This document shows, piece by piece, positions 3,617-26,558 of a DNA stretch of 64,000 nt. Below the pieces are notes generated by a model. It saw nothing but the letters and a program-made list of their open reading frames with translations. It did not search any database and was not told where the DNA came from. This stretch comes from Flavobacterium amnicola. GTDB taxonomy: Bacteria; Bacteroidota; Bacteroidia; Flavobacteriales; Flavobacteriaceae. The position numbers were made by a program, and so were the translations under genes. The stretch is taken from assembly GCF_004122165.1 (NCBI RefSeq), contig NZ_SBKO01000001.1, forward strand, positions 1,116,001 through 1,180,000, in the 5' to 3' direction. The first letter of the stretch is position 1; each line of letters starts with the position of its first letter.

Positions 3617-4048
3617 ATGTCATTTTCCGATTTATTTGATAGCGAATTTAAGGCCAGAAATAAAGGTCATTTTTCTGCGATTGTACGTGTTGCGATTGCT
3701 GATGGTGATTTAACTGCTGAAGAAAAACAATTTTTAGACAAATTAAAAAGCCGCCTAGAAATTTCTGATGCCGAATATGAAGAAATTCTTGAAAATCCAT
3801 TAAAATATCCAATTAATCCACCATCATTACATGTGCAACGTATTGAGCGTTTGTTTGATTTGTCAAGAATGGTGTATGCAGATCATGTACTTGGTCCAAA
3901 ACAAAAAGAAATACTTACTAAATTTGCATTAGCCTTAGGTTTTACGCCTGGAAATGTAAATTATATCGTAGATAAAGCATTGTCACTTTTAATGTTGGAA
4001 GTAGATTTGGATACCTTTGTATATGAAATGCAACATATGAACAAATAA
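3617..4048 (+). CDS. TerB-like (tellurite resistance fold) cytoplasmic protein
   Basis: This 143-residue, mostly helical acidic protein carries the TerB-type core: FSAIVRVAIADGDLTAEEKQFLDKL at residues 20-44, where an acidic turn (ADGDLTAEE) resembles the metal-binding loop of TerB/DjlA-like domains, and a matching C-terminal half (KEILTKFALALGF). There is no signal peptide. The family is widespread and its role is poorly defined; tellurite resistance itself should not be assumed. It is a single-gene unit with its own strong promoter and terminator. Confidence 0.75.
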   Translation: MSFSDLFDSEFKARNKGHFSAIVRVAIADGDLTAEEKQFLDKLKSRLEISDAEYEEILENPLKYPINPPSLHVQRIERLFDLSRMVYADHVLGPKQKEILTKFALALGFTPGNVNYIVDKALSLLMLEVDLDTFVYEMQHMNK

Positions 4049-4074
4049 AAAAAGCTCCAAATGGAGCTTTTTTA
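4046..4074 (+). terminator. Intrinsic terminator after the TerB-like gene
   Basis: AAAGCTCC (4051-4058) pairs with GGAGCTTT (4063-4070) around a 4-nt loop and is followed by T residues. Flanking A and T runs extend the stem and make it usable from both strands, which fits the convergent usp gene ending at 4092. Confidence 0.85.
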
Positions 4075-4091: not shown

Positions 4092-4916
4092 TTAGATTTT
4101 AAAAGTAATAACTGGTTTCGAAGCGTGATTTACCAATCCTTCGCTAATACTTCCGTTGAAAAAATGGTACAAGCTGGTTCTTCCATGTGTACACATTCCG
4201 ACTAAATCAGCATTAACACTATTGGAAAAATTAAGAATTCCAGTTTCAATGTTTGAGTCGTTGTAAATGTGCAATGAATAGTTGTCAATAGAATAACTTG
4301 AAACAAAATCTTTCATTGTTTTTTGTGCTTGATGTGACGTTTTGAAGCTGTTAGGCGTGTTAATCATTACCAGATCAAGATGAGAGCCAAGCATTTTGGC
4401 AAGTTTCATGACTTTTTCGAAAGAACTTCTTGTTTCTTCAGAAAAATCGGAAGCAAATACAAATCTATTGGCATTGAAATTTGGGCTGTCGTTTTTAATT
4501 ACTAAAACCGGAGCTTCAGAATTTCTGACAATCTTTTCAGTGGTAGAGCCTACTAATAATTCTTTAAATCCAGAAGCGCCATGGGAACCCATTACCACCA
4601 TGTCGATATCATAATCTTCGCTATGTTTTATGATTCCTTCAAAGGCTCTTTCGTATTTAATGGCTTCTGTAACTTTAATTCCTGTTAAATAATCTCTGGT
4701 TAAAAGTTCTTCTAACCTTTCATGCGCTTTGTTTAAGAATAGCATAATTTCAGGTATCGCCGCTCCAGAACTTACAGCATCTGCCATTTGTGACGGTAAT
4801 TCAAGCATGTGTACAATGAAAATCTCTCCGTTGTTATCTTTGGCTATTTTGGCAGCGACTTTTAGGGCGTGTTCTGCATGAGTAGAAAAATCAGTAGGAA
4901 CTAAAATTCGTTTCAT
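4092..4916 (-). CDS. Universal stress protein with two tandem Usp domains
   Basis: The 274-residue product (start chosen at MKRILVPTDFS, base 4916, the canonical Usp beginning; an upstream in-frame ATG at 4964 would add 16 atypical residues) contains two UspA folds of about 140 residues each. The first has an intact ATP-binding motif of the G-2x-G-9x-G(S/T) form (GSHG...GS). In the second (CTHG...GS) the first Gly is replaced by Cys, so nucleotide binding there may be altered. Usp proteins are cytoplasmic stress and starvation factors; the client of this one is unknown. It is transcribed divergently from rimP. Confidence 0.88.
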   Translation of the reverse strand: MKRILVPTDFSTHAEHALKVAAKIAKDNNGEIFIVHMLELPSQMADAVSSGAAIPEIMLFLNKAHERLEELLTRDYLTGIKVTEAIKYERAFEGIIKHSEDYDIDMVVMGSHGASGFKELLVGSTTEKIVRNSEAPVLVIKNDSPNFNANRFVFASDFSEETRSSFEKVMKLAKMLGSHLDLVMINTPNSFKTSHQAQKTMKDFVSSYSIDNYSLHIYNDSNIETGILNFSNSVNADLVGMCTHGRTSLYHFFNGSISEGLVNHASKPVITFKI

Positions 4917-5022
4917 AATGGTAAGGTTTATGATTAATATTCCGTTTTGCATTTTGTTTGTCACATAAAGGTAAGAAAAATATTAACATAATACAATAAT
5001 TTTATTTTTATAAAAAAAGTAG

Positions 5023-5030
5023 TATATTTG
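5023..5030 (+). promoter_or_regulatory. -7 element of the rimP-nusA-infB operon promoter
   Basis: TATATTTG matches the Bacteroidota -7 consensus TAnnTTTG. The -33 region (around 5000-5003) is T-rich but has no exact TTTG. Transcription would start near 5036, giving a leader of about 57 nt that contains the hairpin at 5061-5081. Confidence 0.65.
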
Positions 5031-5060
5031 CGCCGTTATTTAGCAGTTTATTTAAATAAT

Positions 5061-5086
5061 GAGGCACGCACAGCGTGCCTCTTTTT
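5061..5086 (+). promoter_or_regulatory. Terminator-like hairpin in the rimP leader (candidate attenuator)
   Basis: GAGGCACGC (5061-5069) pairs perfectly with GCGTGCCTC (5073-5081) around the loop ACA and is followed at once by five T residues (5082-5086). This is the form of an intrinsic terminator, but it lies between the operon promoter and the rimP ATG. There is no plus-strand gene just upstream to terminate: usp is divergent and the TerB-like gene already ends with its own terminator 1 kb earlier. The reverse-strand reading has no T-tract. It is therefore best read as a leader attenuator; NusA, encoded by this operon, is itself a termination factor. Confidence 0.7.
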
Positions 5087-5093
5087 ATACAGT

Positions 5094-5558
5094 ATGGGAT
5101 TTAAAGAAAAAGTAAAACAATTATTAGAAGAAGGTTTGGAACAATATCCAAGTCTGTTTCTTATTGATTTAAAGATTGATGATTCCAATAAAATTATTGT
5201 AACTTTAGATGGTGATACCGGAGTGCAATTGCAAGATTGTATCGATATCAGTAGGATGGTTGAGAATAATTTGGATAGAGAAGAACAAGATTTTGCTCTT
5301 GAAGTGGCTTCGGCCGGCGTCTCTTCTCCATTAAAAATGGTTCGTCAGTATAAAAAAAATATTGGTAGAACACTAAAAATTAGAACGGAAGCAGCCACTA
5401 TAGAAGCGTTGCTTGTAGATGCTTCCGATGAGAATATTACAGTTGAGTGGAGTTCAAGAGAACCCAAAAAAATAGGAAAAGGAAAAGAAACAGTGCTTCA
5501 TAACGAAAAAATCGCTTACAGTGATATTAAAGAAGCAGTTGTTACAATAACATTTTAA
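5094..5558 (+). CDS. rimP: Ribosome maturation factor RimP
   Basis: RimP assists late assembly of the 30S ribosomal subunit. The 154-residue product starting at [14 protein letters not shown] has the usual family length and motifs: [19 protein letters not shown] in the N-terminal half and [14 protein letters not shown], the RimP signature, in the middle, followed by the SH3-like C-terminal domain. The frame is open from a TTG at 5028, but that would place the start inside the -7 box, so 5094 is preferred. It is followed by nusA after 14 bases, the conserved order in bacteria. Confidence 0.95.
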
Positions 5559-5572
5559 ATTAAAGAGTTGGT

Positions 5573-6814
5573 ATGGAGAATTTAGCATTAATTGATTCAT
5601 TTTCAGAATTTAAAGACGATAAATTAATAGATCGTGTAACGCTTATGGCGATTTTGGAAGATGTGTTTAGAAATGCATTGAAGAAAAAATACGGTTCCGA
5701 TGATAATTTCGATATCATTATCAATCCTGATAAAGGAGATATGGAAATTTGGAGACGTAGAGTTATTGTTGCAGATGAGGACTTAGATTTCGAAAATGAA
5801 GAGATAACACTTTCTGAAGCTAGAAAAATCGAACCTGATTTCGAAATTGGGGAAGAAGTTTCAGAAGAAGTGAAATTAATAGATTTAGGAAGAAGAGCAA
5901 TTTTGGCCTTACGTCAAAACTTGATTTCTAAAATCCATGAACATGACAATACTAATCTTTACAAACAATTTAAAGATTTAATTGGCGATATTTACACGGC
6001 TGAAGTACACCATGTACGTCCAAGAGCGGTAATTCTTGTAGATGATGAAGGGAACGAAATTGTGTTGCCAAAAGAAAAACAAATTCCTTCCGATTTCTTC
6101 CGTAAAGGAGATAACGTTCGTGGAATTATTGAAAACGTTGAGCTTAAAGGAAATAAGCCACAAATTATCATGTCTAGAACTTCAGAAAAATTCTTAGAGA
6201 AATTATTCGAACAAGAAATTCCAGAAGTATTCGACGGATTGATTATGATCAAAAAGGTCGTGCGTATTCCTGGTGAAAAAGCAAAAGTGGCTGTAGATTC
6301 TTATGATGATCGTATTGATCCAGTAGGAGCGTGTGTGGGTATGAAAGGATCTCGTATTCACGGTATTGTTCGTGAGTTAGGAAACGAAAATATTGACGTA
6401 ATCAACTACACAACAAATACGCAATTGTATATTACAAGAGCATTGAGCCCGGCAAAAGTATCTTCCATCAAAATTGATGAAGAGAAAAAAACAGCTGAGG
6501 TTTATTTAAAATTAGAAGAAGTATCTAAAGCGATCGGTCGTGGTGGTCACAATATTAAATTGGCGGGACAACTAACAGGATACGAATTAGATGTTATTAG
6601 AGAAGGAAGTGCAGCAGAAGATGATGATGTTGAATTAACGGAATTCTCAGATGAAATCGATGGATGGATCATTGATGAGTTTGCAAAAATTGGATTGGAT
6701 ACAGCGAAAAGTATCTTAACTCAAAATGTGAACGATTTAGTGCGTCGTACCGATTTAGAAGAAGAAACAATTCTTGAAGTAATCAAGATTTTGAAAGAAG
6801 AATTTGAAGATTAA
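5573..6814 (+). CDS. nusA: Transcription termination/antitermination protein NusA
   Basis: NusA binds RNA polymerase and modulates pausing, termination and antitermination. The 413-residue protein has the N-terminal polymerase-binding domain (about 1-130), an S1 RNA-binding domain (about 135-200) and two KH domains (about 230-345; GACVGMKGSRIHGIVRELGNE, then AIGRGGHNIKLA). A short acidic C-terminal region follows; the tandem acidic repeats of E. coli NusA are not evident. It lies between rimP and infB in the canonical operon and could feed back on the terminator-like hairpin in the operon leader. Confidence 0.96.
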   Translation: MENLALIDSFSEFKDDKLIDRVTLMAILEDVFRNALKKKYGSDDNFDIIINPDKGDMEIWRRRVIVADEDLDFENEEITLSEARKIEPDFEIGEEVSEEVKLIDLGRRAILALRQNLISKIHEHDNTNLYKQFKDLIGDIYTAEVHHVRPRAVILVDDEGNEIVLPKEKQIPSDFFRKGDNVRGIIENVELKGNKPQIIMSRTSEKFLEKLFEQEIPEVFDGLIMIKKVVRIPGEKAKVAVDSYDDRIDPVGACVGMKGSRIHGIVRELGNENIDVINYTTNTQLYITRALSPAKVSSIKIDEEKKTAEVYLKLEEVSKAIGRGGHNIKLAGQLTGYELDVIREGSAAEDDDVELTEFSDEIDGWIIDEFAKIGLDTAKSILTQNVNDLVRRTDLEEETILEVIKILKEEFED

Positions 6815-6858: not shown

Positions 6859-9669
6859 ATGTCTGAAGGAACAATTAGAATAAACAAAGTTTTAAGGGAA
6901 TTTAATATTTCGTTAGAAAGAGCTGTCGATTTTTTAAAGGACAAGGGGTTCACTATTGAATCTAATCCGAATACAAAAGTCACTGACGAAATATACAATA
7001 TCCTGTCAAACCAATTTGCTGGAGACAAAGGGAATAAAGATGCTTCAAAAGAAGTGAGTGAGGAGAAAAGAAAAGAAAAAGAAGCCCTGCGTATTGAGCG
7101 TGAACGCGAGCATGAACTTGAAGAAAAGCGCAAGCTTGAAGAAGAACGTGCCCGTCAAGAAGTGATTAAAGCAAAAGCTAGTATTACGGCACCAAAGCAA
7201 GTGGGTAAAATTGACTTGAATCCTGCAAAACCTGTAGAAAAAGTTGTAGAAAAACCTGCAGAGAAAAAACCTATTGAAGCAAAACCTGTTGTAGAAGCTC
7301 CTAAAGCAGAAGTGAAGCCAGAAGTAGTGAAAGAAAAAACAGCTGAAAAAGTTGCTGAAAAACCAGTAGTAGTCGCTCCAAAAACAGAACAACCAGCTTC
7401 AAGCCCTTCACAAGAAGCTGCCCCTGTAGACGAGGCTCACGAAACGCAGTACACCAAATTATCAGGTCCTACTTTTTCGGGTCAAAAAATTGATTTAACG
7501 CAATTCAACAAGCCTAAAAAGAAAATAGAGCCTAAAATTACCAACAACCAAAACGCTGCGGGTAATAATGCTAATGCTGCCGATAAAAAGAAACGTAATA
7601 GAATCCCAACGAAGCCAGGGCAACCAGGCCAAGGAGGAGGGCAACCCGGTCAAGGTGGACAAAACAGACCGCAAGGACAAGGTGGTTTTAACAAGCCAGG
7701 AGGAAGTAGACCTTTTACCAAAGGAAATAATAGTCAACGTCCTGCTATCGTCAAGGTAGAGCCATCTGAAGAGGATGTAAAAAATCAAATTAAAGAAACT
7801 TTAGAGCGTTTACAAGGAAAAGGTAACAAATCTAAAGCAGCCAAATACCGTCGTGACAAGCGTGATACGCACCGTCAAAAATCGGACGACGAACAACGAT
7901 TATTAGAAGAAGGTAGCAAAACGCTAAAAGTAACCGAATTCGTTACGGTAGGTGAAATTGCTACGATGATGGATGTGCCAATTACAAAAGTAATTGGAAC
8001 CTGTATGTCGCTTGGTATCATGGTAACCATGAACCAACGTTTGGATGCAGAAACCTTAACTATCGTTGCCGATGAATTTGGTTATGAAGTAGAATTTATT
8101 ACTACTGATATTGAAGAAAATATCGAAGTAATTGAAGATAAACCAGAAGATTTAAAACCTCGTGCCCCAATCGTTACGGTTATGGGTCACGTTGACCACG
8201 GTAAAACATCGTTATTGGATTATATCCGTAAAACAAATGTAATTGCGGGTGAGTCAGGAGGTATTACACAACATATTGGTGCTTACGGAGTAGAGTTAGA
8301 CAATGGTCAAGAAATTGCTTTCTTAGATACACCAGGTCACGAGGCGTTTACCGCGATGCGTGCCCGTGGAGCTCAAGTAACTGATATCGCGATTATTGTA
8401 GTGGCGGCGGATGATGATATCATGCCACAAACTAAAGAAGCCATCAGTCACGCACAAGCCGCTGGAGTGCCTATCGTGTTTGCGATTAATAAAGTGGATA
8501 AACCAACGGCTAATCCTGAAAAAATTAAAGAAAAATTAGCAGCCATGAATTTCTTGGTGGAAGATTGGGGTGGAAAATACCAATCGCATGATATTTCTGC
8601 CAAAACAGGATTGGGAGTAAAAGAATTATTAGAAAAAGTATTATTGGAAGCGGAGGTTTTAGAACTGAAAGCGAATCCAAATAAACCAGGGGTAGGAACG
8701 GTTGTTGAAGCATTCTTAGATAAAGGACGTGGATATATTTCTACAGTTTTGGTACAAGCAGGTACGGTTAAAGTGGGGGATTATATCTTAGCGGGAAAAA
8801 ACCACGGTAAGATTAAAGCTATGCAAGATGAACGTGGTAAAAACGTAAAAGAAGCAGGGCCTTCAACACCAATTTCAATCTTAGGATTAGATGGAGCACC
8901 AACAGCTGGTGATAAATTTACCATTTACGAAGACGAAAGAGAAGCCAAACAAATTGCAGCAAAACGTACACAGTTAATGCGTGAGCAATCAGTACGTGTA
9001 CAACGTCATATCACATTAGATGAAATCGGTCGTCGTATTGCTTTAGGTCAGTTTAAAGAATTGAACATTATCCTTAAAGGAGACGTGGATGGTTCGGTAG
9101 AAGCCTTATCTGATTCGTTCTCTAAATTGTCAACAGATGAAATCCAAGTGAATATTATTCACAAAGGGGTTGGAGCGATTACAGAGTCGGATGTTATGTT
9201 GGCTTCGGCTTCAGATGCGATTATTATCGGATTTAACGTTCGTCCTGCTGGAAATGCGAAGCAATTAGCCGATAAAGAAGAAATTGATATCCGTCATTAT
9301 TCTATTATCTATGCTGCTATTGATGATTTACGTGATGCAATGGAAGGAATGTTATCTCCTGAAATGAAAGAAGAGATCACAGGTACAGCAGAAATTAGAG
9401 AATTATTCAAAATTTCTAAAGTGGGAACTATTGCAGGATGTATGGTTACCGATGGCAAAATCTTTAGAGCAAATAAAGTACGTTTAATCCGTGAAGGTGT
9501 CGTAATTTACACTGGAGATTTGATTGCCTTAAAACGTTTCAAAGACGATGTGAAAGAAGTATCGAAAGGATACGATTGCGGTATGCAAATTAAAGGCTAT
9601 AACGATATTGAAATCAATGACGTTATTGAAGGATTTACCGAAGTTGCCGTGAAGAAAAAATTAAAATAA
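6859..9669 (+). CDS. infB: Translation initiation factor IF-2
   Basis: IF-2 is the GTPase that places initiator tRNA on the 30S subunit and promotes subunit joining. The 936-residue protein has the N-terminal IF2 domain (about 1-55), a long Lys/Glu/Pro/Gln-rich linker (about 60-320) with a Gly-Gln-Pro repetitive stretch near 255-280, then the G domain with GHVDHGKTS (G1), DTPGH (G3) and NKVDKP (G4), and the beta-barrel and C-terminal tRNA-binding domains. It is the last gene of the operon and is followed by a strong terminator. Confidence 0.97.
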
Positions 9670-9715: not shown

Positions 9716-9799
9716 GCATTTTAACTGTTTGTGCGTTTTTTCTTTTTAAAGGAAAAGATTATGATTACTTTTACACCAAACAAACAAAACTTTAAAACC

Positions 9800-10390
9800 A
9801 TGAAAAAAATTACTTTTTGCCTTGTGCTGCTTTTTAGCTGTCTCACGGCAACGAAATCTTTTGCTCAAGATGGCTACATAGGCGAAATTCGTATGGTAGG
9901 CTTTACATTTGAGCCAAGAGGGTGGGCCTTTTGTGATGGACGGATATTATCTATTGCATCAAACACAGCACTTTTTTCGATTTTAGGAACTACTTACGGG
10001 GGCAACGGTACGACAACATTTGCCTTGCCAGATTTAAGAGGAAGAGCTCCTATTCATGTTGGTGCAAGTCAAGGACCAGGCCTTTCTCCTGTTTCTTTAG
10101 GTCAAATGAGTGGTCAAGAAATTGTGACTTTAACACCACAAAATGTACCTTCACACACACATGCCATCAATGCTACTACTGCCGATGGAACTTCTGGTAA
10201 TCCAGAATCGAACATTCCAGCCAATACGAAGTTGTTAGATAAAGAGTATTCCGATGCCGCAGCTAACACTACGATGAGTCCTGCAATGGTGCAACCGGCT
10301 GGAAACAACACTCCTTTTAATAACATGCAACCTTACTTGGGAATGAATTATGTAATTTGTTTACAAGGGATTTATCCACCAAGAAATTAA
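9800..10390 (+). CDS. Secreted tail-collar domain protein (copy 1)
   Basis: From the start at MKKITFCLVLL (base 9800; the frame is open further upstream from 9731, but that would bury the signal peptide) the product has 196 residues: a signal peptide ending near SFAQ, then a phage tail collar domain (GEIRMVGFTFEPRGWAFCDG, LFSILGTTYGGNGTTTFALP, DLRGR) and the conserved C-terminal ending NNMQPYLGMNYVICLQGI. The family is often labelled microcystin-dependent protein or tail fiber protein. No other phage gene is near, and the signal peptide argues for a cell-surface or secreted role. It is the first of three paralogues in the same direction. Confidence 0.85.
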   Translation: MKKITFCLVLLFSCLTATKSFAQDGYIGEIRMVGFTFEPRGWAFCDGRILSIASNTALFSILGTTYGGNGTTTFALPDLRGRAPIHVGASQGPGLSPVSLGQMSGQEIVTLTPQNVPSHTHAINATTADGTSGNPESNIPANTKLLDKEYSDAAANTTMSPAMVQPAGNNTPFNNMQPYLGMNYVICLQGIYPPRN

Positions 10391-10410
10391 TTCAACATAA
10401 AACTTATCAA

Positions 10411-11088
10411 ATGAAAAATATACTATCAATTTTTTTGTTATTTTTTGTTTTTGCTACTAACGCTCAAACGATAAATTTCACGGGCTGTCCAAATCTTTTT
10501 GCGAGTTCATCCTATACATTCAATTTGACTGGTTCAAGTGCCGGTAGAAATATTTATACAACAACCCCGATAACTGGGGATCAATCATGTCCTGGATTAG
10601 GGGTTTGTGAATTCCAGATATCTTGGAATGCAGCCAATTCCCGTTGGGAATTTATTGCCGATGATGGAAATGGAGATTTTTCGGGGTATAATTTGATTTA
10701 TTATAATACTTCAGCGTCGACTCCAAATCCTCCAAGTTTGAGTTTGGGAGTATGGACAGAAAATGTTCCAACTACTACGGGCCAATGTGCTGGAAACTTA
10801 ACTTCAGGGAATTCAACGTTAACGGGAAGTGTTCAAAATGTTTTGGCTAGAAATGATTATATGTATGATAATTCCATTCAAATTTATCCTAATCCAGTTG
10901 CTACTGTGTTGAAAATTAATTCTCCTAATCGAATTGAAAAGGCAATGATTTATAATCTGCAAGGGCAATTAATTAGCGAGGTTAACCAATCAAATGAGTT
11001 GGATTTTTCTACTTTTCAAGCGGGGATGTATTTGGTTAAAATTATCTCTGAGAAAGGAATTAAAATTCAAAATATAATTAAACAATAA
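10411..11088 (+). CDS. T9SS type A sorting-domain protein in the tail-collar cluster
   Basis: The 225-residue product (start at MKNILSIFLLFFVF, base 10411) has a signal peptide ending near TNAQ, an extracellular domain of about 130 residues with several Cys (FTGCPNLF, DQSCPGLGVCEF, TGQCAGN) and repeated aromatic strands, and a C-terminal sorting domain of T9SS type A (IQIYPNPVATVLKI ... GMYLVKI ... IIKQ). It should be exported by the type IX system and anchored or released at the surface. I do not recognise the central domain. It sits 20 bases after tail-collar copy 1 and 6 bases before copy 2, so it is probably co-expressed with them. Confidence 0.8.
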   Translation: MKNILSIFLLFFVFATNAQTINFTGCPNLFASSSYTFNLTGSSAGRNIYTTTPITGDQSCPGLGVCEFQISWNAANSRWEFIADDGNGDFSGYNLIYYNTSASTPNPPSLSLGVWTENVPTTTGQCAGNLTSGNSTLTGSVQNVLARNDYMYDNSIQIYPNPVATVLKINSPNRIEKAMIYNLQGQLISEVNQSNELDFSTFQAGMYLVKIISEKGIKIQNIIKQ

Positions 11089-11094
11089 ACTATT

Positions 11095-11670
11095 ATGAAA
11101 AAGTATTTATATTCCATTATAACTTTATTTTTTGTAGGGTTTGGACAAGTGAGTTATGGTCAAGACGATCCAATGATTGGTGAAATTCAAATTTTTGCTG
11201 GAAACTTTGCCCCAAGAGGATGGGCATTTTGTAATGGGCAATTATTGTCTATTGCTTCAAATACAGCATTGTTTTCTTTATTAGGTACAACCTATGGCGG
11301 AAACGGTCAAACTACTTTTGCTTTGCCTGATTTGAGAGGAAGAGTTCCAGTGCATCCTAACAATACTGCAATTGTACAAGGACAAATGGCGGGCACCGAA
11401 GCGAATTCATTAACTATAAATAATTTACCTGCACATAGCCATACTATTAATGGGGTGACAACAGCAGGAAACCAGAATTTGCCAACAGGCAACTTACCAG
11501 CTGAAACAGCCACACTAGATCCTGAATATTCAAATGCTGTACCCAATGCTTTTATGGCGTCTGGAGTGATGTCTCCTGCAGGGGGGAGTCAGCCAATCAA
11601 TAACATTCAGCCAAGTGCGGGGTGTATGTATATCATTGCGCTACAAGGGATATTTCCATCAAGAAATTAA
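11095..11670 (+). CDS. Secreted tail-collar domain protein (copy 2)
   Basis: This 191-residue protein has a signal peptide (MKKYLYSIITLFFVGFG, cleavage near SYGQ) and a tail-collar domain almost superimposable on copy 1: FAPRGWAFCNGQLLSIASNT, LLGTTYGGNGQTTFALP and DLRGRVPVH, with the C-terminal block NNIQPSAGCMYIIALQGIFPSRN. The middle part between these blocks is the most variable among the copies and may be the specificity region. It starts 6 bases after the T9SS protein gene. Confidence 0.85.
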   Translation: MKKYLYSIITLFFVGFGQVSYGQDDPMIGEIQIFAGNFAPRGWAFCNGQLLSIASNTALFSLLGTTYGGNGQTTFALPDLRGRVPVHPNNTAIVQGQMAGTEANSLTINNLPAHSHTINGVTTAGNQNLPTGNLPAETATLDPEYSNAVPNAFMASGVMSPAGGSQPINNIQPSAGCMYIIALQGIFPSRN

Positions 11671-11713
11671 TAACGAATTAGTACAGTTTTAAATAATTTC
11701 AAAAGAATTAATT

Positions 11714-12307
11714 ATGAAAAATATCAAAATAATTATACTACTTTTTGTGTTGGGCTTTTTTAATCAGAAAGGCTTTTCTCAACAAGTGTTTATGGGTCAA
11801 GTTAAAGTTTTTGCTGGAAATTTTGCTCCAGCGGGTTGGATGTTTTGTGACGGTAGTTTATTGCCAATTTCGGAAAATGAAGCTTTGTTCTCTTTGCTTG
11901 GAACGACTTATGGCGGTGACGGACAAACAACATTTGCTCTTCCAGATTTTAGAGGACGTATCGTAACGGGTGCAAATAACAGTACAGGACCGGGATTGAG
12001 TAATGTGCAATTAGGACAACTATATGGATCCGAAACCAACACAATGAATATTAATCAGATGCCAGTGCATAATCATGGAATTGCCTGTGTTTCTAGTGCG
12101 GGCACATCCAATCTTCCAACAGGGAATTTGTTTGCCAATGCGGGGGTTTTAGATAAGGAGTTTGCCAATACAGCGTCAAACACCACAATGAAATCTACTA
12201 TGGTTAATCCATCTAACGGTGGGAATCAACCCTTCACTAATATGCAACCTACTCTAGGTTTAAATTATATCATTAGTTTGTACGGTGTGTATCCAACGCA
12301 AAATTAA
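11714..12307 (+). CDS. Secreted tail-collar domain protein (copy 3)
   Basis: This 197-residue protein has a signal peptide (MKNIKIIILLFVLGFF, cleavage near FSQ) followed by the tail-collar blocks FAPAGWMFCDGSLLPISENE, LLGTTYGGDGQTTFALP and DFRGR, and ends with NMQPTLGLNYIISLYGVYPTQN. It is more diverged than copies 1 and 2. It is the last gene of the cluster and meets the convergent pseudouridine synthase gene at a shared terminator. Confidence 0.85.
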   Translation: MKNIKIIILLFVLGFFNQKGFSQQVFMGQVKVFAGNFAPAGWMFCDGSLLPISENEALFSLLGTTYGGDGQTTFALPDFRGRIVTGANNSTGPGLSNVQLGQLYGSETNTMNINQMPVHNHGIACVSSAGTSNLPTGNLFANAGVLDKEFANTASNTTMKSTMVNPSNGGNQPFTNMQPTLGLNYIISLYGVYPTQN

Positions 12308-21591: not shown

Positions 21592-23304
21592 ATGAGTGAA
21601 ACAGTAAAAACTGGACATCCAAAGGGACTTTGGGTATTATTCGGAACTGAAATGTGGGAACGTTTCAACTTCTACGGAATGAGAGCGTTATTAACGCTTT
21701 TCATGGTAAATTCTCTTTTAATAAAAGAAGCGGATGCCGCAATTATCTATGGTGGATTTTTAGCATTATGTTATTTAACACCATTGTTAGGAGGATTTAT
21801 TTCTGATAAATATTTAGGAAACAGAAATTGTATTCTTGTTGGAGGAACCTTAATGGCTATCGGACAGTTTTTATTATTTTTAAGTGCTTCAACATTCTCT
21901 ACGAACTTAGGTGGCGCTAAAACCATCATGTGGATTGCCTTATTTATTATCATTTTTGGAAATGGTTTCTTCAAACCGAATATTTCTTCCATGGTGGGAA
22001 GTTTGTATCCAAAACAAGAGAAATCGAAATTAGACTCAGCGTTCACCATTTTCTATATGGGAATTAATATGGGTGCCTTTTTAGGTCAGTTTATTTGCCC
22101 TTATTTAGGAGATGTAAAAGATGATGCAGGAGTTAGAGATATTTTTGCTTTCAAATGGGGATTCTTAGCGGCTTCAATCGCGATGATCATTGGAACTATC
22201 ACCTTTTTTATTCTTAAAAATAAATATGTTGTAAATCCGGAAGGTCGACCAATCGGTGGTTTGCCAAAACACAATACAAGTGACGATTTTGAAGAAGGTG
22301 AAACGCAAACGGCAAAATTCACTGGAAAATCAATCGGAATTGCTATCGGATTATTCGTAGCCTTATTTTTTGTATTCCGATATGTATTGGTAGGTGAGTT
22401 TGGTTTCACTTCTGTGGAAATGGGACAATTAATCAAAGGAATTATTTATCCGTTTATCTATTCTGCTGGTATTTCTTTGGCGTTCTTAATTATGAGCTCT
22501 GCCGAAAATAAAGTAGAAAGACAAAGAATTTGGGTAATCTATATCGTTTCGTTCTTTATTATTTTCTTTTGGGCTGCTTTTGAACAAGCGGGATCCTCAT
22601 TAACATTCATCGCCGATAACCAAACCGACAGACATATTTTCGGATGGGATATGCCGCCTTCAATGGTTCAAATTTTCAACGGATTATTCGTAGTAGCCTT
22701 AGCATTACCTTTCAGTTTGCTTTGGGATAAATTAAGAGCTAAAGGTCAAGAACCGGTTTCGCCTTTAAAACAAGCTATTGGTTTGGCATTAATTGCCTTA
22801 AGTTATTTCATCATCGCGCATAATGTAAAAGACTTAGGAAATTCAGGGTTGTTAGCGATCAAATGGTTGATGTTATTGTACTTAATTCAAACGATGGGAG
22901 AACTTTGTTTGTCTCCAATCGGATTGTCTTTGGTTGGTAAATTAGCACCGAAACGTTTCGCTTCATTACTATACGGAGTTTTCTTTATTTCTAATGCGGC
23001 GGGTTATGCTTTAGCAGGTTCGTTAGGAGCTATTATTCCGGCAACGGGAGATAAATTCCAAAAAGCAGAAAAACTAGGAATTAACCTTCAAGAAGTATTG
23101 GATAAAAAAGTGACATTAACTCCCGAGCAAGTAGCTTTATTCGAAAAAGAGCAATTGCCAATGGCGAATACTACTTTTGCTGGATTTGAAATTCACAATT
23201 TATACGAGTTCTTCATGGTGTTCGTAATTCTTTGTGGAGTAGCAGCTATTATCCTTGCTTTATTGTCTCCACGTTTAAAGAAAATGATGAACGGAGTGCA
23301 GTAA
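21592..23304 (+). CDS. POT family proton-coupled peptide transporter (1 of 3)
   Basis: This 570-residue inner-membrane protein has 12 or more transmembrane helices and the POT signatures EMWERFNFYGMRALL (proton-coupling ExxERF motif, about residues 17-31), GGFISDKYLGNRN and GNGFFKPNISSMVGSLY. POT carriers import di- and tripeptides with protons. It follows the dipeptidyl peptidase gene after 32 bases, so the peptidase and this carrier are probably co-transcribed as a release-and-uptake pair. It ends at a strong terminator. Confidence 0.93.
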   Translation: MSETVKTGHPKGLWVLFGTEMWERFNFYGMRALLTLFMVNSLLIKEADAAIIYGGFLALCYLTPLLGGFISDKYLGNRNCILVGGTLMAIGQFLLFLSASTFSTNLGGAKTIMWIALFIIIFGNGFFKPNISSMVGSLYPKQEKSKLDSAFTIFYMGINMGAFLGQFICPYLGDVKDDAGVRDIFAFKWGFLAASIAMIIGTITFFILKNKYVVNPEGRPIGGLPKHNTSDDFEEGETQTAKFTGKSIGIAIGLFVALFFVFRYVLVGEFGFTSVEMGQLIKGIIYPFIYSAGISLAFLIMSSAENKVERQRIWVIYIVSFFIIFFWAAFEQAGSSLTFIADNQTDRHIFGWDMPPSMVQIFNGLFVVALALPFSLLWDKLRAKGQEPVSPLKQAIGLALIALSYFIIAHNVKDLGNSGLLAIKWLMLLYLIQTMGELCLSPIGLSLVGKLAPKRFASLLYGVFFISNAAGYALAGSLGAIIPATGDKFQKAEKLGINLQEVLDKKVTLTPEQVALFEKEQLPMANTTFAGFEIHNLYEFFMVFVILCGVAAIILALLSPRLKKMMNGVQ

Positions 23305-23333
23305 AACTATTAAAAAATATTTTTATATCTTTC

Positions 23334-23365
23334 AAGCTCGAAACTACGGTTTCGGGCTTTTTTAT
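23334..23365 (+). terminator. Intrinsic terminator after the first POT gene
   Basis: An 11-bp stem (AAGCTCGAAAC, 23334-23344, with GTTTCGGGCTT, 23349-23359, one G-T pair) closes the loop TACG and is followed by a T run. Confidence 0.88.
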
Positions 23366-23392
23366 TTTTAGACCAAATTAACCTAATAAATT

Positions 23393-25051
23393 ATGTGGAA
23401 ATCACATCCAAAGGCCTTGCCTTATTTGTTTTTATCTGAAATGTGGGAACGTTTCGGTTATTATTTAATGATTGGAATTTTTACCCTATACCTTAAAGAT
23501 GTAGAAGCCGGTTTTGCCATGACCGAAGCAGAGGCTTCAGATTTGTATGGAACATTTATTGCCTTAGTATTCCTAACTCCTTTTATCGGGGGTTTAGTAG
23601 CAGATAGATATCTTGGATATCGAAATTCCATAATTTCTGGTGGAATCATGATGGGAATAGGTTATTTGATGATGGGAATTCATAATCTTCCCATGTTATA
23701 TGTCGCCATGACTTTAGTTATTGTTGGTAATGGTTTCTTTAAGCCAAATATTTCTACTTTGTTAGGTAATTTTTACAACGACGAACAATATAAAGCTAAA
23801 AAAGATGAAGGGTACAATATTTTCTATATGGGAATAAATGTTGGAGCTTTTATTTGTAACTTTTTTGGAGCTGTTTTCGAAAACTTATTTGGCTGGGCCG
23901 CTGCTTTTTCTGTCGCTGGTGTTGGTATGTTTATTGGAGTAATTGTCTTTATGTTGGGAACCAAATATTATGGTGATAAAACAGAGAAAAAAGGAACACA
24001 AGAAGGAGATATGCCTTTTTGGAAAATTGTTATGTTTATTCTAGTACCATCAGTAGTATTCGGAATTATTGGTTGGCTCATAAAAGGTGTAGCATCCGAT
24101 ACAAATTTAGATAGTGCCATTTTTGGTTCTGATAGTACCGATGCCTTTATTTTTGCTTGTATACCAGTAGTATTATTTTACTCAAGTTTATATTTTAAAG
24201 CCAAAGAAGACGATAAAAGACCTATTGGTGCTTTGTTGGCTATTTTTGCCGTGGTAATTTTATTTTGGGCTGTTTTTAAACTTAACGGATCTGCTTTAAA
24301 CAACTGGGGAGATAAATACACGAATCGTGAAGTGACAGGAATAGCAAAGAAGGTTACAGATAATATTTTTCTTACGAAAGAATTAGAATACAAAAAAGAT
24401 TCTGTTGCCTTATACGATAACGCATTTCGAATTCAAAAGAAAAACGGAGAAGTAATCAAAGAAGTGAATTATCCTTTGTACTTCAGAAACGTAGCCAAAG
24501 AAAAATTACCAAGCGAAGGGGCTAAAGTTTCCGTTTGGGCATCCAACCTAAGTCAATCAATTAATCCGTTTTGGGTAATTGCATTAACGCCTCTAATAGT
24601 AGCATTTTTCACCTTCTTGAGAAGTCGCCAAAAAGAACCTTCCACTCCAACAAAAATTGCTTTCGGATTATTAATTTCTGCTTTGTCAGTATTAGTAATG
24701 GTTTTAGCAGTTAAGGCTGGACAAAATGGTTCCGAAAAAGTATCTGTACTTTGGTTATTTGCTAATTATGGCGTAATTACTATCGGTGAATTACTATTAT
24801 CACCCATGGGATTATCTGTAGTTTCCAAATTAAGCCCAAGAAATATAACTTCTTTGATGATGGGAGGATGGTTTTTGGCAACTTCAATCGGAAATAAATT
24901 ATCGGGAGTTTTGGCCAGTATGTGGGATACCTACGATGATAAAACCGATTTCTTTTGGGTAAACTTTGGATTGCTAATGTTTGCAACCTTGTTGATGTTT
25001 GCCTTGTTGAAACAGTTGAATAAAGTAATGAAAGAAAAAGGAATTAATTAA
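23393..25051 (+). CDS. POT family proton-coupled peptide transporter (2 of 3)
   Basis: This 552-residue carrier has EMWERFGYYLMIGIFTLYL near its N-terminus, GGLVADRYLGYRN, and GNGFFKPNISTLLGNFY. It differs from its neighbours by a hydrophilic insertion of about 80 residues (roughly 300-385) between two helices, rich in Lys and Asn, which could be an external loop. The gene after it starts one base beyond its stop codon, so the two are translationally close. Substrate range is unknown; the three carriers may differ in peptide preference. Confidence 0.92.
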   Translation: MWKSHPKALPYLFLSEMWERFGYYLMIGIFTLYLKDVEAGFAMTEAEASDLYGTFIALVFLTPFIGGLVADRYLGYRNSIISGGIMMGIGYLMMGIHNLPMLYVAMTLVIVGNGFFKPNISTLLGNFYNDEQYKAKKDEGYNIFYMGINVGAFICNFFGAVFENLFGWAAAFSVAGVGMFIGVIVFMLGTKYYGDKTEKKGTQEGDMPFWKIVMFILVPSVVFGIIGWLIKGVASDTNLDSAIFGSDSTDAFIFACIPVVLFYSSLYFKAKEDDKRPIGALLAIFAVVILFWAVFKLNGSALNNWGDKYTNREVTGIAKKVTDNIFLTKELEYKKDSVALYDNAFRIQKKNGEVIKEVNYPLYFRNVAKEKLPSEGAKVSVWASNLSQSINPFWVIALTPLIVAFFTFLRSRQKEPSTPTKIAFGLLISALSVLVMVLAVKAGQNGSEKVSVLWLFANYGVITIGELLLSPMGLSVVSKLSPRNITSLMMGGWFLATSIGNKLSGVLASMWDTYDDKTDFFWVNFGLLMFATLLMFALLKQLNKVMKEKGIN

Positions 25052-25052
25052 T

Positions 25053-26558
25053 ATGGGAACAACTATACAAGAAATTCAAGATTTTAAAGGAAAGTATCCA
25101 AAACAACTTTGGTATTTGTTTTTTAGCGAAATGTGGGAACGTTTCAGTTTCTACGGTATGCGAGGTATGTTGGTGGTTTTTATGGTAAGCCAATTAACCA
25201 TGGACGAAAAAACAGCCAATCTTCAATATGGTGCGACTCAAGCTTGGGTATATGCCTTTACTTTTATCGGAGGTTTGTTTGCCGATAAAATTTTAGGGCT
25301 TCGAAAATCATTGTTTTGGGGCGGTTTGTTAATGATTGTCGGAAGTGTCATCTTAGCTATCGATCCCAAACATTTCTTTTTCATCGGAATTGGTTTTACC
25401 ATCGTCGGAACGGGTTTCTTTAAGCCAAATATTTCTTCCATGGTAGGGCAATTATACAAAGATGGAGATGCACGTCGTGATGCCGGATTTTCTTTGTTTT
25501 ATGCTGGTGTGAATTTAGGGGCTTTAATCGGAGGTTATATCTGTATTGCTGTGGCGAACGGAAATTTATGGTCTTCATTGGTGCCTGAAAGCTTACGTTG
25601 GAATTATGCCTTTGGTTTTGCAGCCATCGTAATGATAATAAGTTTGTTGACGTTTACTCAAACACAAAAAAGCTTAGGTGAAATCGGATTGTCTCCTTTA
25701 GCCCATTTAGAAGATTCGAAGCGAAAAGCATTGGAAGTGATTACTTTCATTGGTTCGTTGGCAATTGTGCCGGTAATCATTTTAATGGTGGCCAATACGG
25801 TGTATACTGATTATTTCATGATGATCATTGGTCCGGCTTCTATTCTGTATTTGTTTTACGAAATGCGTAATTTTTCAAGTGCGGAAAATAAAAAATTGTT
25901 AGCCGCTTTGGTGTTTATAATTTTCTCTATTTTCTTTTGGGCTTTTTTCGAACAAAGTGGAGGTTCCTTGAGTTTGTTTGCAGCGAATAATTTAGAAAAT
26001 ACCGTAGCAGGTGTAGAGCTAGATCCAAATGGAGTGAATAATTCAGCCAATTCGTTGTTTGTTATTGTATTTGCTGCACTTGTTGGAATGGTTTGGTTGT
26101 GGATGAATAAAAGAAAAATTGAACCCAATACAGTGGTGAAATTCGGATTGGCATTCGTGTTTCTAGCGGGTGGTTTTTGGATTTTTTATTACACTAAATT
26201 CTTTGCCGATGCTTCGGGTAAAACCTCTTTAGATTTGTTTACTTTTGGATGGTTTATCATTACTTTTGGAGAATTGTGTTTGTCCCCAATCGGGATGAGT
26301 GCCATGACCAAATTATCGCCTCAAAAGACCCAAGCTGTTATCATGGGGATGTGGTTTTTAGCCAGTGCTTACGGTCAGTATTTTGCGGGTTTATTAGGTG
26401 CTAATATTGCTGAAGCTTCCGAAAATGCTTCCAATTTAGATAAATTAATGGTCTATGCCGATGGATACAAACAATTGGCCATTTATGCACTTGTGGCAGG
26501 AGTGGTTTTAATTCTGATTTCACCATTGGTAAAAAAACTAATGCAAGAAGTTAAATAA
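25053..26558 (+). CDS. POT family proton-coupled peptide transporter (3 of 3)
   Basis: This 501-residue carrier has the motifs EMWERFSFYGMRGMLVVF, GGLFADKILGLRK and GTGFFKPNISSMVGQLY. It is shorter than the two upstream paralogues and lacks their long loop. All three genes lie in tandem, which suggests duplication followed by divergence. It is followed by a weak hairpin and then by two thioredoxin-fold genes. Confidence 0.92.
   Translation: MGTTIQEIQDFKGKYPKQLWYLFFSEMWERFSFYGMRGMLVVFMVSQLTMDEKTANLQYGATQAWVYAFTFIGGLFADKILGLRKSLFWGGLLMIVGSVILAIDPKHFFFIGIGFTIVGTGFFKPNISSMVGQLYKDGDARRDAGFSLFYAGVNLGALIGGYICIAVANGNLWSSLVPESLRWNYAFGFAAIVMIISLLTFTQTQKSLGEIGLSPLAHLEDSKRKALEVITFIGSLAIVPVIILMVANTVYTDYFMMIIGPASILYLFYEMRNFSSAENKKLLAALVFIIFSIFFWAFFEQSGGSLSLFAANNLENTVAGVELDPNGVNNSANSLFVIVFAALVGMVWLWMNKRKIEPNTVVKFGLAFVFLAGGFWIFYYTKFFADASGKTSLDLFTFGWFIITFGELCLSPIGMSAMTKLSPQKTQAVIMGMWFLASAYGQYFAGLLGANIAEASENASNLDKLMVYADGYKQLAIYALVAGVVLILISPLVKKLMQEVK

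Follow-up and report, generated by a model that had tools for sequence, protein, structure and literature searches.

Why does a terminator-like hairpin stand between the promoter of the rimP-nusA-infB operon of Flavobacterium amnicola and the first gene of that operon? The operon encodes the general factors NusA and IF-2, and its control has, to our knowledge, been tested in few bacteria. We analysed this locus within a stretch of 64,000 nucleotides (the window) and compared its leader with those of related genomes. The hairpin, which is retained in flavobacterial relatives, probably acts as a feedback brake like those described in other bacteria. By analogy with such systems, we consider it reasonably likely that the leader carries an intrinsic-terminator attenuator with NusA as the best candidate for the factor that sets termination.

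Anatomy of the rimP leader

The operon is located on the plus strand and consists of rimP (5094-5558, start codon ATG5094), nusA (5573-6814) and infB, encoding IF-2 (6859-9669). The product of rimP scores above the Pfam cut-off for RimP_N and just below that for the RimP C-terminal model. The product of nusA, the candidate feedback regulator, was recognized by the Pfam models NusA_N and KH_5, with two NusA KH models scoring below their cut-offs, and infB was assigned by Pfam IF-2. RimP comparison identified F. terrae and F. luminosum as the nearest named loci (82% each). Upstream of rimP, TATATTTG at 5023-5030 of the plus strand reads as a -7 box of the Bacteroidota primary sigma factor, whose consensus TAnnTTTG sits at -12 to -5 in F. 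psychrophilum (PMC9723704). Since TATATTTG fits this consensus, transcription is predicted to start at the G at 5035 on the same strand; the base at the predicted start is a purine (G or A) in every one of the 35 distinct genus leaders and in 120 of 127 others.

Consensus scan and folding both identified a terminator hairpin at 5061-5081 (plus strand) with a perfect stem of 9 bp and a loop of 3 nt, GAGGCACGC-ACA-GCGUGCCUC (in the letters of the window GAGGCACGC-ACA-GCGTGCCTC). It is followed on the same strand by the U-tract UUUUUAUA at 5082-5089, which is interrupted after five U (T5 at 5082-5086, then ATA). The initial annotation had described this stem, loop and T5 between the -7 box and rimP, and the coordinates it gave are correct. 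The predicted leader of 54 nt folds with a minimum free energy of -20.4 kcal/mol (z = -6.50), and none of 200 shuffled sequences reached a value as low. In the 4 kb scanned, seven terminator-like sites were counted, the leader hairpin among them, compared to 2.5 (sd 1.6) in shuffled sequences. A strict hairpin with T-run no more than 150 nt upstream was found for 3 of 50 predicted genes of the window, and the other two cases are end terminators of the preceding plus-strand genes (infB and the gene at 21592-23304). The leader hairpin is strong: on trimmed stems it reaches -15.9 kcal/mol, whereas 13 terminators at gene ends in the window average -9.8 kcal/mol. Its U-run of 5 is slightly shorter than their mean of 5.5.

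A leftover terminator of an upstream gene was considered as another reading of this structure. As had been annotated, the neighbouring Usp gene (4092-4925, minus strand, assigned by Pfam) is divergent from the operon, and the TerB-like gene has a terminator of its own, located by terminator scan at 4048-4073. Furthermore, 180 of 194 regions could be anchored (the 14 for which the pattern gave no anchor were left uncounted), and in 175 of these 180 a -7 box ends 14-34 nt 5′ of the stem, with a rate of about 2% in shuffled sequences. A promoter box thus intervenes between the hairpin and any upstream gene, which disfavours a leftover terminator, in agreement with the initial annotation.

Two further groups of genes in the window caught our attention. 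At 21592-26558, three tandem plus-strand genes have similar N-termini (EMWERFxxY), which we take to be typical of proton-dependent peptide transporters. At 9731-12307, three of four plus-strand open reading frames share a motif like GWAFCDG...ALFSLLGTTYGGNG, presumably that of tail-collar-like proteins.

Conservation among relatives

A strict hairpin with T-run no more than 150 nt upstream of rimP was detected in 161 of 175 flavobacterial relatives and in 1 of 875 dinucleotide shuffles, and by eye the remaining 14 carry bulged, mismatched or shorter versions of it. This set consists of the 140 genomes of a 149-genome family sample that had a RimP match, the window's own included and the 9 without match left out, together with 24 further members of the genus, 5 genomes from other families and 6 more members of genus or family. 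Locus L258 was left out, being from the same genome as L040. The hairpin is present in both loci that are cut at contig ends (L050 and L060). Exact stems are GAGGGGAC/GTCCCCTC in 125 relatives, all 125 of the form GAGGGGAC-N(3-7)-GUCCCCUC, GAGGCACGC/GCGTGCCTC in 9 and GAGGGAAGC/GCTTCCCTC in 4, and each of the other 37 has an inverted repeat followed by a T-run, judged by eye and uncontrolled, some of these repeats being bulged, mismatched or short. Among the 141 of the 175 relatives that have one of three exact 3′ arms, 120 carry TTTTTATA directly 3′ of the stem.

The hairpin was also encountered beyond the family. It passed the strict test in 2 of 3 further members of the order and in 14 of 16 genomes from other orders of the class (shuffles 1/80). 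Among 24 distant members of the phylum, drawn from 86 with a RimP match, 10 were positive (shuffles 0/120) and 14 failed the strict test, and a looser test that accepts 7 of 8 pairs and was run without shuffle control was positive in 23 of these 24.

Evidence for a hairpin at the RNA level

The leader alignment of Flavobacteriaceae called for in the initial annotation found the stem kept, with compensatory changes, and the T-tract mostly kept. In 121 distinct hairpin rows, 98.8% of cells are paired, as opposed to at most 73.8% when the partner strand is slid; the rows are the distinct matches to a hairpin-like pattern from 194 regions, and the exclusion of non-matching regions inflates the percentage paired. 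Changes on both sides were seen in 5 of 8 pairs, and compensatory cells, which are sequences and not independent events, numbered 36 compared to 3.2 (sd 1.6) in shuffles. The loop varies from 3 to 7 nt among the 125 relatives with identical stems, and 11 of the 121 rows have G.U as their outermost pair; both features point to an RNA element and away from a DNA palindrome. A palindrome just downstream of the promoter that is bound by a dimeric repressor would agree with an inverted repeat held at near-constant distance from the promoter box, but the variable spacer in otherwise identical hairpins and the asymmetric G.U pairs rule out a DNA operator for practical purposes, and the T-tract is one-sided as well.

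The spacing between the end of the stem and the point where the RimP match begins is looser than the near-fixed distance between box and stem. In 138 relatives it has a median of 18 nt and a range of 10 to 71 nt, and it reaches 109-113 nt in L072, L078 and L200; match starts in general may lie a few codons off the true start. The hairpin thus keeps its place relative to the promoter more closely than relative to the start codon, and this speaks for an action on transcription. In L053, L072, L078, L200 and L206 the hairpin stays near the promoter box and rimP follows 55-113 nt further on, which leaves room for an extra leader segment. Taken together, the analysis supports the leader hairpin as a real, conserved, terminator-like element at the RNA level and not a leftover terminator.

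Core sequences and their replacement

An exact search for GAGGGGAC...GTCCCCTC through 99 genomes of the order gave a single copy in each of 29, always directly upstream of rimP in the correct direction; the reversed control pattern had a match in 1 of the 99. The exact pattern is absent from the other 70 genomes. In the genus of the window, the core is a different one in many members, including the window itself; the stems of the window and of these others have GGCACGC/GCGUGCC or GGGAAGC/GCUUCCC. The pattern GAGGCACGC...GCGTGCCTC occurs once each in 23 of 121 genomes of the genus, and the copy in one of them (G439, locus L278) lies away from rimP. The shorter GGCACGC pattern was found at 32 places in 30 of the 121 genomes, rimP leaders included. 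Of the 31 loci that were read (one copy in G012 was left out), 23 are rimP leaders, the window's own among them, and 8 are away from rimP. Seven of these eight hairpins are preceded by an A-rich stretch, followed by a T-run and resemble ordinary terminators, so that the CACGC core of genus leaders apparently serves elsewhere too, as an ordinary terminator. The genome of the window itself holds a second GGCACGC hairpin, GGCACGCATTGCGTGCC (L032:1501-1517, corresponding to G000:C30:1578-1594), between two converging open reading frames, with A5 before and T4 after it; its core and loop match exactly those of the rimP leader hairpin in L012 and L021.

When mapped onto a rimP-nusA tree with 26 members of the genus, the cores GGGAC, GAAGC, CACGC and one other require 9 changes, where 3 is the minimum. 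In shuffles the mean was 11.6, with values as low as 9 in 5 of 200, and the observed distribution is therefore more clustered than chance. The well-supported sisters L020 and L021 differ in the core despite nearly identical flanks. The core sequence can thus be exchanged, whereas the base GAGG/CCUC, the U-tract and the position are retained. Discrete core types interconvert repeatedly in Flavobacterium with nearly constant flanking letters, as seen for the window's hairpin (5061-5081) and the leaders of L020/L021 and L008/L010. Because of the nine core changes, and because 8 of the 31 CACGC loci lie away from rimP, we considered that cores might be copied by templating from elsewhere in the genome. 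Such copying may have occurred, but the 32 GGCACGC places in 121 genomes are a small number, and a limited repertoire of efficient terminator cores would account for the changes equally well.

Core replacement also bears on whether the hairpin is an RNA operator, at which RimP, IF-2 or NusA would act on translation start or RNA stability and not on termination. A stem that is identical in 125 of 175 relatives and an exact motif found solely before rimP are what a protein-binding site would look like. However, the distance between stem and rimP is loose for a block of initiation, the core has been replaced in many Flavobacterium and the U-tract is left unexplained, and we therefore regard this operator as improbable.

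A bolder version of autoregulation may also be considered. The hairpin might be a class-wide, single-copy, operon-specific autoregulatory RNA in which an operon product (NusA or RimP) reads both the sequence and the fold of the GAGGGGAC hairpin, and in Flavobacterium the core would have been exchanged repeatedly between a small number of discrete palindromes (GGGAC, GAAGC, CACGC) without change of base, U-tract or position. We put this forward as a tentative possibility. If true, the natural series of cores would make it possible to tell recognition of a specific sequence from generic NusA-stimulated termination.

The 5′ helix and the proposed leader peptide

Predicted folds place an A/U-rich helix, P1 (GUUAUUUAG...UUUAAAUAAU, 5035-5060, plus strand), at the 5′ terminus of the transcript, adjoining the main hairpin. 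Flavobacterium leaders usually start with such a helix of 8-9 bp at the predicted 5′ end, which is rare in other genera. A P1 of at least 6 bp was found in 28 of 35 distinct genus leaders (0.084 in shuffled sequences) as opposed to 7 of 127 outside the genus (0.019 in shuffled sequences). P1 may protect the 5′ end, and we have demoted it from a part of the core mechanism to a feature of the genus.

With two adjacent hairpins, the leader could also be an unregulated leaky terminator or structural element that fixes a constant read-through or protects the 5′ end of the mRNA. P1 would indeed cover the extreme 5′ end in most genus leaders, and the predicted folds show no antiterminator (in either minimum-energy or centroid structures) and no ligand-binding fold. 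Yet P1 is rare outside the genus whereas hairpin and U-tract persist there, a stability hairpin needs no U-tract although TTTTTATA follows the stem in most relatives, and the exclusive occurrence of the exact motif at rimP (29/29) fits better to control by a product of the operon. An unregulated element appears rather unlikely to us on these grounds.

The initial annotation had further proposed that a leader peptide is translated across the hairpin. The frame is present: ATG5059 opens 18 codons that end at 5115 (plus strand). Its translation would melt the stem and couple the state of the ribosome to termination, and in favour of such a switch, of 30 genus members inspected 28 could be anchored and 27 of these have an ATG before the stem, as do 26 Flavobacterium loci with the pattern in a second set (33 of 71 loci inspected). 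However, 21 of the 27 genus frames share the reading frame of rimP (offset 0), and 20 continue into it without a stop. In the second set, the frame of F. hydatis runs into rimP too, and separate frames vary from 4 codons (MRHA* in F. franklandianum) to 18 (F. terrae); an ATG is found before the stem in just 58 of 127 relatives outside the genus, and in L072 and L078, with the hairpin 109 nt before rimP, the ATG frames end before the hairpin. Neither start codon, nor length, nor frame is kept in the alignment of relatives, and a conserved short reading frame overlapping the terminator, as known from trp-type attenuators, was not detected in these leaders. We therefore reject the frame at 5059-5115 as a functional part and hold a leader-peptide attenuator to be very improbable. 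In many Flavobacterium the pre-hairpin ATG is in frame with rimP (e.g. L005:1960-1998), and an N-terminally extended RimP is conceivable.

Comparison with known leaders

The closest described system is the rimP-leader of Naville and Gautheret (2010, PMC2965389), who named NusA as the best regulator candidate. It is an attenuator with a short terminator hairpin, a G-rich 5′ arm, a C-rich 3′ arm and a T-stretch, located 4-130 nt before rimP in rimP-nusA-infB operons and without a larger conserved element (PMC2965389). In the window, a short terminator hairpin with such arms and a T-stretch likewise lies directly upstream of rimP in a rimP-nusA-infB operon, and no other helix is conserved beyond the genus, P1 being kept within it. 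The two differ in the core: the rimP-leader signature is GGGc/gCCC (PMC2965389), the flavobacterial family has GAGGGGAC/GUCCCCUC instead, and the window's own stem GAGGCACGC is without GGG. The words 'Bacteroidetes' and 'Flavobacteri' do not occur in the main text of PMC2965389.

None of 41 family genomes exceeded the curated cut-off of 47 bits for the Rfam family RF01770 (rimP), a negative that says little on function because just 1 of 14 control genomes passes. Under stricter filters, the matches listed for RF01770 included no weak match at the rimP leader of the window. A permissive Rfam scan of 4800-5400 gave 5 matches, all far below the gathering scores and none to the rimP family. By analogy we file the hairpin as one that would work like rimP-leader, and we claim no Rfam membership.

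A structured 5′ element without Rfam hit has been reported upstream of rimP in F. psychrophilum and in other genera of the Flavobacteriaceae (PMC9723704). The passage on this element gives neither a sequence, nor a mechanism, nor a tie to rimP-leader, and we infer that it is very likely the same element as this hairpin. The main text of PMC7366714 does not contain rimP or nusA, and nothing on the rimP leader was found in PMC8060035. Among the matches listed in our literature search, which left preprints, most subscription papers and supplements outside its reach, no paper linked rimP-leader to the flavobacterial element or described its anatomy in Bacteroidota. In Bacillus subtilis, NusA-stimulated intrinsic termination in the nusA leader is described as established (Mondal 2016, via PMC12288461). 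Both operons would use intrinsic termination in the 5′ leader as the means to control transcription into nusA; the control is experimental in B. subtilis (PMC12288461) and deduced in Flavobacterium.

Proposed mechanism

A conserved terminator before housekeeping genes that is not accompanied by an RNA switch would imply partial or factor-set termination. NusA is a natural candidate for the factor since it has been proposed for rimP-leader and is described as established in the B. subtilis leader, which makes NusA control of leader termination plausible by analogy. We infer that the hairpin stops part of the transcripts in living cells, under the control of NusA. RNA polymerase would start near 5035 and form the A/U-rich 5′-terminal helix, followed by the very stable hairpin and UUUUUAUA. 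At some rate, a short RNA of about 52-54 nt would then be released in place of entry into rimP-nusA-infB. No alternative fold would be required; a termination factor would set the stopping fraction. High NusA would lead to stopping and low NusA to read-through, and NusA would thereby hold its own level.

Several points count against this attenuator. A hairpin so close to the 5′ end might instead act on the stability of the mRNA or on its translation. The GGGGAC core of most relatives suggests recognition beyond generic NusA-stimulated termination, although this core has been replaced in many members of the window's genus. Finally, the hairpin is strong here and the only interruption is in the U-tract.

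Implications

Bacteroidota use a different promoter type (PMC9723704), and their ribosomes do not recognise Shine-Dalgarno sequences (PMC9976891). The core replacements in Flavobacterium provide ready-made compensatory variants for the old proposal that the stem is recognized in a sequence-specific manner. A hairpin so conserved in Bacteroidota would suggest that feedback termination ahead of rimP has an earlier origin and a broader distribution than the cases studied by experiment.
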